The notes under the pieces were generated by a model. It had not been told where the DNA came from and made no database searches. It saw nothing but the letters and a program-made list of their open reading frames with translations. Source: an uncultured Cellvibrionales bacterium (lineage in GTDB: Bacteria > Pseudomonadota > Gammaproteobacteria > Pseudomonadales > Cellvibrionaceae). Taken from it: a DNA stretch of 36,320 bases. How positions within the stretch are numbered: position 1 is the first letter of the stretch; every line of letters starts with the position of its first letter. The stretch spans positions 1 to 36,320 of the forward strand of contig CAJWCA010000006.1 in the NCBI GenBank assembly GCA_913020395.1. The letters run 5' to 3'. The position numbers and the translations under genes are program-made. Shown here piece by piece: positions 3,927 through 36,318 of this stretch.

Positions 3927-4931
3927 TTATAGGGTGGTGGCACAATTTCTGCCTGCGTTTTTTGACTGATAGAGCGCCTTGTCTGCACGGCAAAAGACAT
4001 CATCAAAATGTTTGTCCTCATTTTTGGGGTGAGTAATCCCAATGCTCATCGTGAAAGAAAATGACTGTTGTTTGTAGTTTATTTCGAGTGTTGAAATTGC
4101 GTTCTGCAGGCGTTTGGCCATGTCATTGGACGCAGCGTGATCGGCACCATTCATTATCACCATAAATTCCTCACCGCCAACTCGGGCGAATTCATCAGAG
4201 TCACGCACAGCGGTGTTGATGATGCGAGTAAATTCACACAGCGCATGATCCCCTGCGTCATGGCCATGTTGATCATTAACTTCTTTGAAGTGATCGATGT
4301 CCATGACTAACAGGGCAAAATCTTTCTGACTGGATTGCCATTGCTCCATGAGTCTCTGGCCGGTATTAAAAGCGGTACGTCGATTATACACCCCCGTCAG
4401 TGAATCGGTTGCGGCGAGCGTTTTTTGAATATCCAGTTGATAATGCGTAAATAAATGATTGGCCACCCAGTTTGCTAAACATTGCAACAGTATGGCTTCG
4501 TTCTCGCCGTAGATATCTTTTTGAGAGTGTGCGATGTTGATTGTACCAAAACAGCTTGAGCCTTTATTTAAAGGGGCATCCATGCAGGTTTTTAAACCAT
4601 TGGCCGACAGCATTTGACAGTCGTTCTCTGTCATTTCTTCCAGTGCGAGTGCAATTTCAATTTTTTTCTGGGAAAAAACCCGACCCACCATTGAGTTTTT
4701 AATGGGAACTTTTGTATCGACCGGAATCGCCTCGTTGCCCGACAACACATAGATTTCCAAGTTTTCCTCGTCGCCTGCGTCGAGGCAGATGCTGGCTCGT
4801 TCTGCGGGAATAATTTTGGGTAGCCAGTGGGCGATACAATTGAGGGTTGAAGCGATGTCTTCTGCGAGTGTAAGTTGACTGACAAAGGCGACAGGCAAGG
4901 TGATGGTCGTTATTGTGCGTTCAGATGGCAT
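3927..4931 (-). CDS. GAF-GGDEF diguanylate cyclase
   Basis: N-terminal GAF-like region; C-terminal 'DSLTGVYNRRTAFN...VMDIDHFKEVNDQHGHDAGDHAL...RDSDEFARVGGEEFMVIM' with GGEEF active site and an RxxD I-site five residues upstream. Confidence 0.93.
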   Translation of the reverse strand: MPSERTITTITLPVAFVSQLTLAEDIASTLNCIAHWLPKIIPAERASICLDAGDEENLEIYVLSGNEAIPVDTKVPIKNSMVGRVFSQKKIEIALALEEMTENDCQMLSANGLKTCMDAPLNKGSSCFGTINIAHSQKDIYGENEAILLQCLANWVANHLFTHYQLDIQKTLAATDSLTGVYNRRTAFNTGQRLMEQWQSSQKDFALLVMDIDHFKEVNDQHGHDAGDHALCEFTRIINTAVRDSDEFARVGGEEFMVIMNGADHAASNDMAKRLQNAISTLEINYKQQSFSFTMSIGITHPKNEDKHFDDVFCRADKALYQSKNAGRNCATTL

Positions 4932-29777: not shown

Positions 29778-30497
29778 TTGATGAGCGAGAAAAAAATGAT
29801 TTCCTTTAAGCATTTGGTTATGGCAACGGCAGTTGCGGCGTCGATTTCTTCACCCTCCGCAAGCGCCCTGGAAGCAGGGGATGTAATTATTAGAACGGGC
29901 ACGACAACAGTAGACCCCCGGGAGAGCGGAAGCTCGGCGACCTTAAACGGGTCAGTGTTAAGCCTTGCGGGCGGCACCACAGAATTGGGTGTGAATAGCG
30001 ATACGCAGCTCGGTCTTACCGCCACCTATATGCTGTCGTCTCACTGGGGAGTAGAGTTACTTGCCGCAACACCATTTGAACATGTAGCCAGTGGCTTGGG
30101 TGAACTTGAGGGGCTGGACATTGCGGAGACAAAGCAGTTGCCTCCCACACTGAGTGCTATCTATTACTTCAATCCCCAAAGTCAGTTTAAAACCTATGTG
30201 GGGGCTGGTCTTAACTACACGGTATTCTTCAGTGAAGATATCACATCTGAGGCCGATGCCGCTCTCAGTGGACTGGGATTAACGGGAGCCGATGTGAACA
30301 TCGATGACTCTTGGGGTGTGTCTTTTCAAGCGGGTTTGGATGTTCAGATAGACAAGCAGTGGTCGTTCAATACGTCTGTGCGTTGGATCGACATTGATAC
30401 CGAAGCCAATATTAAATTTGATGACGGAAGCCGCATTGTTGCAGGCATTGATATTGACCCTCTGGTTTACACCGTCTCGGTCGGCTATCAATTTTAG
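29778..30497 (+). CDS. OmpW-family outer membrane protein
   Basis: 'AGDVIIRTGTTTVDPRE', 'DTQLGLTATYMLSSHWGVELLAATPFEHVASG', 'TKQLPPTLSAIYYFNPQSQFKTYVGAGLNYTVFF', C-terminal 'VYTVSVGYQF'. Start may be a downstream in-frame ATG (29796). Confidence 0.95.
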   Translation: MMSEKKMISFKHLVMATAVAASISSPSASALEAGDVIIRTGTTTVDPRESGSSATLNGSVLSLAGGTTELGVNSDTQLGLTATYMLSSHWGVELLAATPFEHVASGLGELEGLDIAETKQLPPTLSAIYYFNPQSQFKTYVGAGLNYTVFFSEDITSEADAALSGLGLTGADVNIDDSWGVSFQAGLDVQIDKQWSFNTSVRWIDIDTEANIKFDDGSRIVAGIDIDPLVYTVSVGYQF

Positions 30498-32617
30498 TTT
30501 ACTTGTAAGTAACCGAGGTATCGATCTCGAATCTGCTTCACATAATGCACCGGTTCAGAGCCGCGGACATAACCAAAGCGCGCTTTTTTATGGTACTGGG
30601 GTTTGGCCAAGAGCAGCATGGCTTCCTCCACGTGCCCGAACCAGCGGTTGGGATCTTTGCCGAGCTGGCCGGCTAGTCGCCGTGCGTCTCTGACGTGGCC
30701 TGCACCGGCATTATAAGCCGCCAGGGTAAAGAAGATGCGCTCCTGCAGGTCGAGTTCCCCAGGAAAACGTTGTTCTAACCAGTTCATATAAGCCATGCCA
30801 GCCGCGACGCCGTTTTCGGCTTGCTCGAGGTTTTTGTAACCCAGCTCGCGTGCTGTGCGAGGCATCACTTGCATCAAACCCCTGGCGCCTGCAAAAGATT
30901 TTGCCTTGGGTCGAAACTTACTCTCTTGATACATCTGCGACACAATGAGGCGCCAATCCATTCCGTACTGTTTGGCCAAGGGTTTTACCAAGTGGTCATA
31001 GGGAGACAAGTCTTCGCCGGCGAGTACACGGTCTGCTTGATGTTTGCGCATTTTGCGACTGTTTTTGAAATACTTGTTAAACGTGACATTGTAGAAAAGG
31101 CCGCGATATTCCTTTTTTATGAAGGCGTCTAGTTTTTCTTTCAGTTGAGTTTGGTCGGGGCGTAAACCCCAGGCGATATTGGCTTTTTGTTCGCTATTGG
31201 CATTCAATTCAATATTCAATTGAATGTCGTCTCGATGGGCGGTTTCGATAGCCAATAGATGGCTGTCTACTGCGGCAAAGTCAAAGTCACCGGCCACCAA
31301 CTTATCAATCAATGATTCAGTGGTGGTTTTGGGGTATTCCTTTAATTGGAATTGAATCCCCTGATCTTGTAATGCTTTAAATGCGCCATAAAAAACTGTT
31401 TCAGGGTTGACCCCAATCGTCTGTGTGGCCAATTGTTCGACGGCGGTGACGGAGGGGCCACCTTTGCGCCCCACCAATTGTTCGCTGACTTTTAAATAGG
31501 GGCGACTAAACTGTAGGCCCATTGATTCACGTTCGAGGGATTGCGTGAGTGATGCGGCGATCACGTCCCCTTCACCTTCTTGCAGGGCGGTGATAAGTTC
31601 CGGAATACTGTCTTTCAGTATCACGGCAATTTGCAACTGATTTTCTTCGGCAAATTTCTTTGTCAGGTCCAGGTCAAAACCCATCAGCTCGCCGCGCCAC
31701 ATAAAATAACTGGCCGGGTTGTTGAGTGTTAACATGCGCAATCGGCCGCGCTGTTTAATGTCTGCCCAGCTGCGTTGATCCCGCTCATTTGCCGAGGCCT
31801 GCAGATGGTGTGAGACTAAAAACTCGTTGAGCTTATTCCGTAGTTCGGGGCTACTAATTCGGGTTGCCCAAGCGATGGGTCGATGGCGCTTCAGCACCAA
31901 GCTGGAGCGCAAATTGGGGTAGTCCAGTAGCAAACGTTTAGCCACATCGCTGTCTAACACAGTTGCTTGTATCTCTCCGGATTCGATGGCATTCAATCGG
32001 TCTTTGTCACTGGTGCCCGGTTTGGCAAGGCTAAGGTTGAGTGACAATTCATGTTTTTCTGACAAGGTTTGAAGGGTATCTAAATACGCGGTGCTTTCAG
32101 GGACAGAGAGCGAGAGTGTGCTCAACAGGGCGGGTTCTTCTATGGCATCTTCAGCGCGGCTGATGAGTAGTTCACTAATTTTGTTGATAGGGCGTGAAAA
32201 AAGCACCTGTTCCTGTCGAGAGGGGGTGACAGTCATGTTGGTGACGATAACATCGCCTTCGCCCCGCTGCAGAGTAGGTATCAACGCAGAAAAATCATCG
32301 ACATAAACCCACTGAACCGTGAGTTGAAGGTGCTGGGCAAAAGCTTCGGCAATTTGTTGATAGTGTTGAGCTGGAATGCCGTCACGGGGAAGAGCCGTGG
32401 TGCCGTCAAAGCGCGGTGCAATCAGCCGCAATGTACCGCGTTCGCCAATAGCTTTCAGATCTCCTAACTCGACGTAAGCTTCAGGTTCCGGGTTGGAAAC
32501 CTGTAGGTTATGTTCTTGAGGGTCTGTTTCCTGTGCGCAACCGACGAGTAAAAGAACAATCGCGGTCAACAGTCCGAGGGTGTGTGTTTTCAAGCTAATT
32601 TTTTTTCGGGTCCACAT
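30494..32617 (-). CDS. MltF-like membrane-bound lytic transglycosylase with tandem SBP_bac_3 domains
   Basis: Lipobox 'LLVGCAQ'; two substrate-binding segments; C-terminal SLT 'DWRLIVSQMYQESKFRPKAKSFAGARGLMQVMPRTARELGY...AAYNAGAGHVRDARRLA'. Confidence 0.92.
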   Translation of the reverse strand: MWTRKKISLKTHTLGLLTAIVLLLVGCAQETDPQEHNLQVSNPEPEAYVELGDLKAIGERGTLRLIAPRFDGTTALPRDGIPAQHYQQIAEAFAQHLQLTVQWVYVDDFSALIPTLQRGEGDVIVTNMTVTPSRQEQVLFSRPINKISELLISRAEDAIEEPALLSTLSLSVPESTAYLDTLQTLSEKHELSLNLSLAKPGTSDKDRLNAIESGEIQATVLDSDVAKRLLLDYPNLRSSLVLKRHRPIAWATRISSPELRNKLNEFLVSHHLQASANERDQRSWADIKQRGRLRMLTLNNPASYFMWRGELMGFDLDLTKKFAEENQLQIAVILKDSIPELITALQEGEGDVIAASLTQSLERESMGLQFSRPYLKVSEQLVGRKGGPSVTAVEQLATQTIGVNPETVFYGAFKALQDQGIQFQLKEYPKTTTESLIDKLVAGDFDFAAVDSHLLAIETAHRDDIQLNIELNANSEQKANIAWGLRPDQTQLKEKLDAFIKKEYRGLFYNVTFNKYFKNSRKMRKHQADRVLAGEDLSPYDHLVKPLAKQYGMDWRLIVSQMYQESKFRPKAKSFAGARGLMQVMPRTARELGYKNLEQAENGVAAGMAYMNWLEQRFPGELDLQERIFFTLAAYNAGAGHVRDARRLAGQLGKDPNRWFGHVEEAMLLLAKPQYHKKARFGYVRGSEPVHYVKQIRDRYLGYLQVN

Positions 32618-32802: not shown

Positions 32803-33657
32803 ATGAGCGAAACAAAGGAGTATGTTCCACCCAGTGTCTGGACCTGGGATACGGAAAGTGGCGGTAATTTTGCCAACATCAACCGCCCGATCGCAGGCTC
32901 CACTCACGAGAAGAGCCTGCCAGTTGGCAAGCACCCCCTGCAGTTGTATTCACTGGGCACACCCAACGGCGTAAAGGTCACCGTCTTGTTGGAGGAGCTG
33001 CTGGCACTGGGTAAATCGGATGCAGAATACGATGCCTGGCTTGTCAACATTGGCGAAGGTGAGCAGTTTGGCAGTGGGTTCACCGAGATCAATCCAAATT
33101 CTAAAATCCCTGCTTTGGTTGACCATAGTACCTCTCCGGCAATACGTGTATTTGAGTCGGGCGCGATAATGGTTTATCTGGCGGAAAAGTATAATGCCTT
33201 TCTGCCAAAAGAAGCTTCTGCGAGAGCGGAGTGTATGTCGTGGTTGTTCTGGCAAGTAGGTAGTGGGCCTTTCTTGGGTGGCGGCTTTGGTCATTTCTAT
33301 GCTTATGCGCCGGAGAAACTGGAGTACCCCATCAATCGTTATGCCATGGAAGTGAAACGACAGTTAGATGTGCTAGACCGCAACCTGGCTGAACGCCGCT
33401 ATCTTTGCGGCAGCGAATACAATATTGCCGATATGGCCAATTACGCTTGGTATGGGGCATTGGTAGAGGGAAAACTATATTCCGCGGGCGAATTCCTGGA
33501 TGTAGAGTCCTATCGCAATGTGATCCGGTGGAGCAGGGATATTGGAGAGCGCCCGGCAGTACAGCGTGGCCGGCGGGTCAATCGTGCGTGGGGCGCTGAG
33601 GAGCTACGTGTGCCTGAACGGCACGATGCCAGTGACTTTGAGCTTGAGCCGGCCTAA
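32803..33657 (+). CDS. yghU: Glutathione-dependent disulfide-bond oxidoreductase / GST (YghU-like)
   Basis: 284 aa; 'YVPPSVWTWDTESGGNFANINRPIAGSTHEKSLPVGKHPLQLYSLGTPNGVKVTVLLEELL' strongly resembles YghU. Confidence 0.93.
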   Translation: MSETKEYVPPSVWTWDTESGGNFANINRPIAGSTHEKSLPVGKHPLQLYSLGTPNGVKVTVLLEELLALGKSDAEYDAWLVNIGEGEQFGSGFTEINPNSKIPALVDHSTSPAIRVFESGAIMVYLAEKYNAFLPKEASARAECMSWLFWQVGSGPFLGGGFGHFYAYAPEKLEYPINRYAMEVKRQLDVLDRNLAERRYLCGSEYNIADMANYAWYGALVEGKLYSAGEFLDVESYRNVIRWSRDIGERPAVQRGRRVNRAWGAEELRVPERHDASDFELEPA

Positions 33658-33672: not shown

Positions 33673-33704
33673 GCGGGCCTGCAGTACTGTTCGGCCCGTT
33701 TTTT
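33673..33704 (+). terminator. Rho-independent terminator after the yghU-like gene
   Basis: CGGGCC (33674-33679) pairs with GGCCCG (33693-33698), followed by TTTTTT (33699-33704). Confidence 0.85.
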
Positions 33705-33841
33705 GAGCACCCTAACAAAGTAGTTGACTTGTTTGGCGCCTTATTCAACAATTGTGGGCTAAGGCGGGGCTCAAAATCAGGCCCCGCAGCGCAAAATGAT
33801 GGCTTTCATATCATCAGAGCCGGTTGGCAATCCCTTCCTCC

Positions 33842-33925
33842 GCTCCGCGAACAGGCAAACCCGTGGTAACTCGGGGACGCAAAACCAGTGCCCAGCAGGT
33901 GGGTCGAACGGTTACCGACAGGAGC
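33842..33925 (+). ncRNA. Cyclic-di-GMP-I (GEMM-I) riboswitch aptamer
   Basis: P1 GCTCC (33842-33846)/GGAGC (33921-33925); conserved 'ACAGGCAAACC', P2 'CCCGtGGTAACtCGGG' with GTAA (GNRA) tetraloop, 'GGGACGCAAAACC', P3 'GCCCA-gcagg-TGGGT', and 3' 'GGTTACCGA'. Confidence 0.9.
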
Positions 33926-34090
33926 TATGCAACGTATTAGTAAAAACTAGAAGTTAACCCGTATTTTACTGAACTCATCACACTCTGTGTGGCTGGTATT
34001 TTTTTGCCTGTTTCTTTGGTCGGGGTGCTTGCGTGCATATCTTATATCCTGTGTGACATGAGTGAATTAATTCAATAATCGGAAGATTGA

Positions 34091-34447
34091 ATGATGAGTG
34101 TTGATCGGCGTAGAAGCGCCAGAGTTGTTGTGAATTGCGAAATGGCAATTAAACTCGACGGTGAAACATTTAACTGCCAGGTTCGCAACATTGCTGGAAC
34201 CGGTGTTCTGGCCCGTGTTCATGCGGGCAATACCTTGAGGCTGAATGAGCTTGAAGAGGTCGGTTGCTGGCTGGAGTATCAGGGCAAGGGTTTTGAGGCC
34301 TGGTGCAGAGTCGTCAGGGTGACCGGTTGGGATGTGGCATTGCTATTTTTGGACCTGGGTAAGGAGCAGATGTCTTTCCTTGAGGAAATAACAAAAGAAA
34401 GCCCCCAAGATCAACGGGAGTTGGAAAGTTCATACCTTTTTGAGTGA
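34091..34447 (+). CDS. PilZ-domain protein
   Basis: 118 aa; 'RRSARVVVNCEMAIKL...CQVRNIAGTGVLARVHAG...GCWLEYQGKGFEAWCRVVRVTGWDVALLFLDLGKEQ': RxxxR present, second motif NxAxxG rather than [D/N]xSxxG. Confidence 0.85.
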   Translation: MMSVDRRRSARVVVNCEMAIKLDGETFNCQVRNIAGTGVLARVHAGNTLRLNELEEVGCWLEYQGKGFEAWCRVVRVTGWDVALLFLDLGKEQMSFLEEITKESPQDQRELESSYLFE

Positions 34448-34530
34448 TAGCAATCTAGTATTACAATGTCTGTTAGTCTAACTGCTCTGTGGATAATTTA
34501 ATGGTATGTAATCCTTGTGGTTTCAAGGGA

Positions 34531-35613
34531 ATGAAAACACTACTTGTAGGCGTATTGTTGACCTTGGCTTCGGCTTCGAAAGCCGAGTGGGATGCGCTGG
34601 TTTTCTCCGATGTGATGGCCAGCCATGTTGATGGCGAACACTTCTCTGAAAAAAATGTAAAACCCTCAATTGATCTCTTTGTATCGGGGAAAAAAGGGCC
34701 GCTGCTTGTCTTGATGGAAGGGTTTGCGTCTGAAAAGGCCCAGCACATGGAGCGATTTCAGCTGGGGCTGAACGTCACTGATTCCTCGAGGTTTTGGCTT
34801 GGGCGCCATCACACTCCCTTTGGCTACTGGCATACACAATACCACCACGGGACCTACCTGCAGACCTCCGCCAGCCGCCCGGCCCTGGTTGAGTTGGGAG
34901 GGGCTGGCGGGATTCTCCCCAGTCACACCACCGGTGGGTTGTTTGAGGTGGAGGTAGAGAGCCAGGAGGCTGCCTGGCATTACGCAGTGTCGCTTGGGTA
35001 TTCTTCACAGCTGAGTACTTCCGGGGGCGGGCATCACGGTGGTGGTGCGATATCGTTGAATGACTTTGACCTATTAAATCCAAAAGCCGGCGACCATGAC
35101 ATGAGTGCTGCGTTTAGGCTGGCCTATCTGCCCAGCGCGTTGGAAGAGACCCAGTTGGGCGCGTTTTGGATGCAGACCGATATCACTCTAAATGAGTCTG
35201 CGCGTGACGATCTCGGGGTAATGCCCAATCAGCATATCAGTTTGGATATTGCCGGGGTGTTTGCCAACGTTGATTGGAGCGCTGTCAGGCTGATCGGGGA
35301 ATGGTATTACCTGGAGACCGAAGTGCCTGAGCAGTCGATCATCCATCGTTCCCAGTTTTCCGCGGCTTACCTACAGCTAGAATACTCTCACAATGAACGT
35401 TGGACACCTTACATCAGGTTTGACCACACCTCCGGAGATGAAGGGGACCCCTATCTGCATCTATTGAAAGCTTATCCGCGCAGTGGTCAGGCATTGGGGG
35501 TGCGCTATGACATTGCCTCCCGGCATGCGTTCAAATTGGAATATACCTATCGAGAGTTTGAGCACAGTGATAGCGGCCGCTGGTTGCTGAGTTGGAGCAC
35601 GGCCTGGCCATGA
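34531..35613 (+). CDS. Outer-membrane beta-barrel (porin-like) protein of unknown function
   Basis: Start ATG at 34531 after AAGGGA; signal peptide 'MKTLLVGVLLTLASASKA'; alternating strands such as 'FQLGLNVTDSSRFWLGRHHTPFGYWHTQYHHGTYLQ' and 'HAFKLEYTYREFEH'. Confidence 0.75.
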   Translation: MKTLLVGVLLTLASASKAEWDALVFSDVMASHVDGEHFSEKNVKPSIDLFVSGKKGPLLVLMEGFASEKAQHMERFQLGLNVTDSSRFWLGRHHTPFGYWHTQYHHGTYLQTSASRPALVELGGAGGILPSHTTGGLFEVEVESQEAAWHYAVSLGYSSQLSTSGGGHHGGGAISLNDFDLLNPKAGDHDMSAAFRLAYLPSALEETQLGAFWMQTDITLNESARDDLGVMPNQHISLDIAGVFANVDWSAVRLIGEWYYLETEVPEQSIIHRSQFSAAYLQLEYSHNERWTPYIRFDHTSGDEGDPYLHLLKAYPRSGQALGVRYDIASRHAFKLEYTYREFEHSDSGRWLLSWSTAWP

Positions 35614-36068
35614 ACGCCCGGCGAATGAGAATGGCAATTGTGTTTATTGGCCTGGTGATTTCACTGGGGGGGCTGCCCCGTGTGATCGCAGGTGAGTTCG
35701 TGCTTGTTGGCGCTGTCTCTCCTGATCGCGATCCTTTTACGCTGTATGAGATCCGCAAGATTTTTCTAGGTCACTCTGTTGAGCGTGATGGCGCCCGAAT
35801 AAAAGGCGTCATTAATGTGGCGGATGAAGACAATTACTCCGTTTTTCTACAGAAATTGATTCACCTGTCGGCAAAAGACTACGAAAGGCGTTTGGTCTCA
35901 AGAACCTTCCGCACGGGCGTGTCTTCGGTTTCAAAAGCAGAAACGTTTGCAGAACTGAAATTGACATTGTTGGCTGATGCGTCAGCTATTTCAGTAGTGC
36001 GCAGTGATCAGCTTGAAGGGAGTGATGGCCTCGAAGTTATACAGGTTCTCTGGAAGGTAGAAGATTGA
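35592..36068 (+). CDS. PstS-like phosphate ABC transporter substrate-binding family protein
   Basis: 158 aa; signal peptide then 'FVLVGAVSPDRDPFTLYEIRKIFLGHSVERDGARIKGVIN...FLQKLIHLSAKDYERRLVSRTFRTG'; overlaps the barrel gene 3' end by 22 bp if this start is right. Confidence 0.7.
   Translation: MEHGLAMNARRMRMAIVFIGLVISLGGLPRVIAGEFVLVGAVSPDRDPFTLYEIRKIFLGHSVERDGARIKGVINVADEDNYSVFLQKLIHLSAKDYERRLVSRTFRTGVSSVSKAETFAELKLTLLADASAISVVRSDQLEGSDGLEVIQVLWKVED

Positions 36069-36096: not shown

Positions 36097-36318
<222 letters not shown>

Follow-up and report, generated by a model that had tools for sequence, protein, structure and literature searches.

Here we report a riboswitch aptamer of the c-di-GMP-I (GEMM-I) class at 33842-33925 (+) of a bacterial contig, which probably heads a transcription unit, by our best guess as a transcriptional ON switch, with a PilZ gene as the first real gene, followed by genes for a porin-like and a periplasmic-type protein, and possibly in a feed-forward arrangement. 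The window, i.e. the whole stretch of 36,320 nt that was analysed, is one contig (36 kb) of a draft genome in 402 contigs with 84% completeness and 5.3% contamination, whose host belongs to the same family as Pseudomaricurvus and Aestuariicella (Cellvibrionaceae). The locus is known from this single draft genome; the one congener that was compared has neither this PilZ gene nor this copy of the aptamer. In favour of this reading, the genome is rich in c-di-GMP enzymes, with 53 GGDEF matches, and has 16 PilZ matches; a second c-di-GMP-I aptamer is located on contig 155. The contig under study also encodes a GGDEF protein (152.9 bits; window 3927-4931, -) and, at 30494-32617 (-), a 707-aa MltF-like lytic transglycosylase whose binding domain is doubled (two SBP_bac_3 stretches; SLT domain at the C-terminus).

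Positions 33844-33919 (+) match the Rfam model of the c-di-GMP-I riboswitch (RF01051) over its full length (model 1-87), with a score of 49.2 bits against a curated cut-off of 35 bits and an E-value of 7.8e-7 over the whole window, where it is the sole Rfam match above a curated cut-off. The initial annotation, which had read the aptamer directly from the letters and proposed a search with the Rfam GEMM model, is confirmed by this significant match, and all the elements it named are readable in the sequence. The AGGCAAACC core at 33853-33861 is followed by P2 with its GUAA loop, GGGACGCAAAACC, P3 and GGTTACCGA (order by direct reading), and the P1 helix (GCUCC 33842-33846 with GGAGC 33921-33925) lies just outside the Rfam model. 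In sister aptamers P1 is kept with changed letters (GCUCC/GGAGU, AGCUCC/GGAGUU, GGCUCC/GGGGUU, UGCC/GGCA, GUUC/GAAC; compared by eye). Because the bare folding energy of the 84-nt aptamer is not special (z -0.17), the aptamer call is based on the score of the covariance model and on related aptamers. Judged by these sequence data, 33842-33925 is a real, canonical c-di-GMP-I aptamer, ordinary for this known class of riboswitches, with predicted binding of c-di-GMP.

The GUAA loop of P2 fits the GNRA consensus, and the P3 receptor reads AGUG..UCGAAC instead of the usual CUAAG..UAUG. This receptor is conserved across the 19 aptamers of the GUAA-type subtype, where it is mostly found together with GUAA loops, CUAAG-type receptors being found with GAAA; the combination looks like an alternative tetraloop-receptor pair. 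A flank of the form GGRGYURUGC is conserved in five of the 19.

The GST-like gene upstream of the aptamer ends at 33657 and is followed at 33674-33704 (+) by a likely intrinsic terminator, which was found by direct reading (CGGGCC 33674-33679, GGCCCG 33693-33698, then six T) and has a loop longer than the terminator scan permits; it would likely separate the GST-like gene from the riboswitch unit. Upstream of the aptamer, the best candidate for a sigma-70-like promoter is TTGACT-17-AACAAT at 33724-33752 (+), with 9/12 matches, a weak candidate in that the scan of the region returned two sites (33724-33752 and 34440-34467) where 1.1 are expected by chance. A GC-rich inverted repeat (GCGGGGC..GCCCCGC, 33764-33787, +), also upstream of the aptamer, has no U run. 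Downstream, the same scan, with its site numbers at chance level, found no promoter-like site between aptamer and PilZ gene (33926-34090). A seven-codon open reading frame (MQRISKN, 33927-33950, +) is probably not a gene, since the GGAG in front of it belongs to P1 and is only 2 nt from the ATG. The PilZ gene (34091-34447, +; 118 aa), which starts 171 nt from the aptamer end behind an SD-like GGAAG (34081-34085), is the first gene of substance; this and the lack of a promoter-like site in 33926-34090 support it as the putative target. The next substantial reading frame on the strand had been assigned to PilZ in the initial annotation, and rightly so: the protein matches PF07238 with 36.6 bits against a gathering cut-off of 22.5 bits.

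The second gene of the proposed unit (34531-35613, +) encodes a porin-like secreted protein of 360 aa with an N-terminus that resembles a signal peptide by eye; no Pfam family scored above cut-off, and the protein has one relative in the same genus (28%) and is nearly absent from the family Cellvibrionaceae. The third (35610-36068, +) encodes a small periplasmic-type protein of about 152 aa that by eye resembles short phosphate-type binding proteins and had no match in Pfam, NCBIfam, PHROG or PDB. The pair (34531-36068, +) faces a convergent response-regulator-containing gene at 36097-36318 (-), which is cut by the contig end.

Canonical c-di-GMP-binding PilZ domains combine the motifs RxxxR and D/NxSxxG (PMC3131395). 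The first is present in the window protein as RRSAR at residues 7-11, with the Arg invariant in an alignment of three subfamily members, namely the window protein, a paralogue on contig 368 and a protein of Pseudomaricurvus alkylphenolicus. The second reads NIAGTG (NxAxxG instead of [D/N]xSxxG), with Ala for Ser in all three. The initial annotation called the PilZ domain a c-di-GMP-binding fold; with the altered second motif, binding by this protein is plausible and not guaranteed. The paralogue (L005:963-1274; 50% identity), which likewise has NxAxxG, is not preceded by an aptamer. Among 144 genomes of the family, searched with a query profile that includes the P. alkylphenolicus protein, strong members of this subfamily occurred only in the window genome (two copies) and in P. 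alkylphenolicus. A scan of the named genomes with the window protein found no relative, and a PDB sequence search with this divergent protein returned no PilZ match.

The genes behind related aptamers were compared in a sample of 192 c-di-GMP-I aptamers from 123 genomes, taken among the matches listed, score-ranked and non-independent. The window aptamer belongs to a subtype defined by the receptor CCAGUG..GGUCGAACGG and by a loop that reads GUAA or another GNNA, which accounts for 19 of these 192 and, with one exception, is found in Cellvibrionaceae. In 15 of the 19, including the second aptamer of the window genome (contig 155), the first gene encodes a single-pass membrane protein of 150-190 aa (L002:1603-2064 on contig 155), and PilZ is therefore not the typical target of the subtype. 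The scanned members of this membrane-protein family, which share the pattern ..IPFDxxDA..C..STRF..YCYxDP.. (L002, L016, L010, L007, L045, L049 and others), matched no Pfam, NCBIfam or PHROG family; other members of the family have no aptamer.

The same 15 loci suggest a different history for the window, in which the membrane-protein gene was the native target and has been lost or broken, so that PilZ, once further down the operon, became first by default under regulation that is possibly decaying. We regard this as unlikely. It draws on the arrangement in P. alkylphenolicus, where a membrane-protein gene and then two PilZ genes follow the aptamer, and on a hydrophobic stretch with a broken frame at the matching position of the window, where the -1 frame is open at 33944-34078. 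However, the encoded peptide does not resemble the membrane-protein family to a significant degree (68 of 486 shuffled peptides match the family N-termini equally well), and no DNA similarity between the window leader and the sister loci extends beyond the aptamer. A decayed membrane-protein gene in the leader was rejected on these sequence grounds, and gene order alone keeps it as a rival. Moreover, the aptamer core is intact, and REC-PilZ genes stand first behind other aptamers.

The linkage of aptamer and PilZ recurs elsewhere. In P. alkylphenolicus KCTC 32386 (NZ_JAAQPI010000011.1), where an aptamer of the same subtype heads the cluster just described, the first PilZ protein of the pair falls below the Pfam cut-off and the second is related to the window protein (34% identity, E 2e-21). 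In three other gammaproteobacteria (L190, L194, L204), a GAAA-type c-di-GMP-I aptamer lies 84-126 nt before a first open reading frame encoding REC-PilZ; in two more (L038, L202), c-di-GMP-I aptamers directly precede stand-alone CheY-like proteins. Among the matches listed, a PilZ gene was present within the examined stretch at 5 of 192 loci, in four of them as the first gene, whereas roughly one first-gene case would be expected in this score-ranked, non-independent sample if about 0.4% of genes encode PilZ as in the PilZ-rich window genome. The enrichment that this suggests is no more than mild. When 89 other first open reading frames were scanned with Pfam, PilZ was not among the 25 most frequent families, which leaves room for single cases. 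In the accessible parts of the open-access literature on c-di-GMP, riboswitches, PilZ and GEMM, no PilZ gene under such a switch was found described, the gene lists of the first GEMM studies (Weinberg 2007; Sudarsan 2008) being outside this scope. As a tentative generalisation, which we hold to be somewhat less likely than not, c-di-GMP-I riboswitches may have been placed repeatedly before PilZ or REC-PilZ genes in several gammaproteobacterial lineages, so that c-di-GMP would set both amount and activity of its own receptor, and the GUAA-loop subtype of Cellvibrionaceae may be dedicated to an undescribed family of single-pass membrane proteins that can travel with PilZ.

The leader between aptamer and PilZ gene (33926-34090, +), the putative expression platform, contains a hairpin, a U run and complements of the aptamer. 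A terminator-like hairpin at 33978-33992 is followed by seven T at 33999-34005, a weak signal of which one is expected by chance. GCUGGU (33992-33997), beside the seven-U run, is complementary to ACCAGU of the aptamer (33884-33889), and UUUGCCUGUUU (34003-34013) can form an 11-bp helix with GAACAGGCAAA of the aptamer (33849-33859). Both pairings are part of the lowest-energy leader fold and conflict with the ligand-bound aptamer; none clearly exceeds those in shuffled leaders, the 11-bp helix being matched in 176 of 2000 (9%). The free fold and the aptamer fold are within about 1-8 kcal/mol of each other, close enough for the ligand to decide which one forms. The idea that the leader is a repeated element was dropped, as its own genome contains no further copy apart from the other aptamer. 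A 37-bp likeness to a site on contig 44, which was considered and set aside, lies between genes, downstream of one that resembles glyA, and has the look of terminator-type sequence common to both sites.

We infer from these features that in the absence of ligand the leader would pair with the aptamer strands (GCUGGU, beside the run of seven U, with ACCAGU, and UUUGCCUGUUU with GAACAGGCAAA); transcription would tend to stop near 34005. Binding of c-di-GMP at the three-way junction would lock P1 and P3, these pairings would be lost and the operon would be read. Transcriptional ON is our best guess, the direction of the switch having little better than an even chance. A point against the proposed reading is that the ribosome-binding site of PilZ changes little between the folds (0.63 to 0.80 unpaired). 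The PilZ product may also sense c-di-GMP. The initial annotation had called such dual control a two-level loop, a wording that we do not retain: PilZ neither makes nor destroys c-di-GMP, and control of both its expression and its activity would therefore be a feed-forward arrangement.

A translational OFF switch, in which a ligand-stabilised P1 hides GGAG (33921-33924), blocks the leader reading frame at 33927-33950 and affects PilZ by coupling, is very improbable. Although GGAG lies within P1 and the ATG comes just after it, the spacing of 2 nt is too short, both states that were modelled have GGAG base-paired, and the leader frame stops 140 nt before PilZ. Sister aptamers, too, keep GGAG-TT-GTG as P1 although the real genes begin 86-126 nt further on; a leader peptide with a P1-hidden ribosome site was rejected because of the short spacing and this structural role of GGAG.

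The transcriptional ON switch would respond to c-di-GMP itself. In the RF01051 alignment and that of the UAU variant (RF03168), the letters at the three-way junction that we take, partly from general knowledge, to contact the ligand are G33854, A33877 and C33915; the window thus has G/A/C where the UAU model has U/A/U, which points to c-di-GMP as the most likely ligand. That the aptamer senses another cyclic dinucleotide, e.g. c-GAMP, hardly deserves consideration: the riboswitch clan does contain variants with altered contact letters, and the E-value mode lists the UAU variant first, with a lower E-value than RF01051, yet its match lacks both U's and its 46.2 bits remain below its own cut-off of 65.9.

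Studies usually treat c-di-GMP riboswitches and PilZ proteins as two outputs of one messenger, each considered on its own. If the proposed arrangement is true, an RNA sensor would set the supply of a protein sensor, so that layered sensing with two affinity ranges could be tested in a clean case; the values quoted in PMC12564702 are 1 nM for Vc2 and 840 nM for a PilZ domain from E. coli. The recurrence in P. alkylphenolicus and before REC-PilZ genes offers further test organisms, one of them cultured. The locus is a mild twist on an ordinary riboswitch, with a PilZ partner that is also found behind c-di-GMP-I aptamers in a few related bacteria.

Among known systems, the Vibrio cholerae riboswitch Vc1, which precedes gbpA, shares with the window the aptamer fold, the conserved core, the contact letters and the lack of an obvious terminator or anti-SD before the gene; it is an experimentally supported ON switch also without a visible platform (PMC4744006). 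It differs in its GAAA loop with CUAAG..UAUG (GUAA with AGUG..UCGAAC in the window) and in its downstream gene, which encodes a surface protein rather than a PilZ protein. The pilM c-GAMP riboswitch of Geobacter metallireducens, which acts at the level of transcription and in which terminator and aptamer strands exclude each other and the ligand turns expression ON (PMC9262584), served as the model for the inferred mechanism; it belongs to another ligand class and its terminator has been demonstrated, whereas that of the window is putative. The window PilZ protein resembles PA4608, VCA0042 and YcgR, c-di-GMP receptors of PF07238, in its Pfam match above cut-off and its N-terminal RxxxR, and differs from them in NxAxxG instead of [D/N]xSxxG. 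The P. alkylphenolicus cluster has a membrane-protein gene and an extra PilZ gene between the aptamer and the related PilZ gene, and no porin and periplasmic genes, but it shares with the window the aptamer subtype, P1 (GCUCC/GGAG), the flank GGAGYURUGC and a related PilZ protein.
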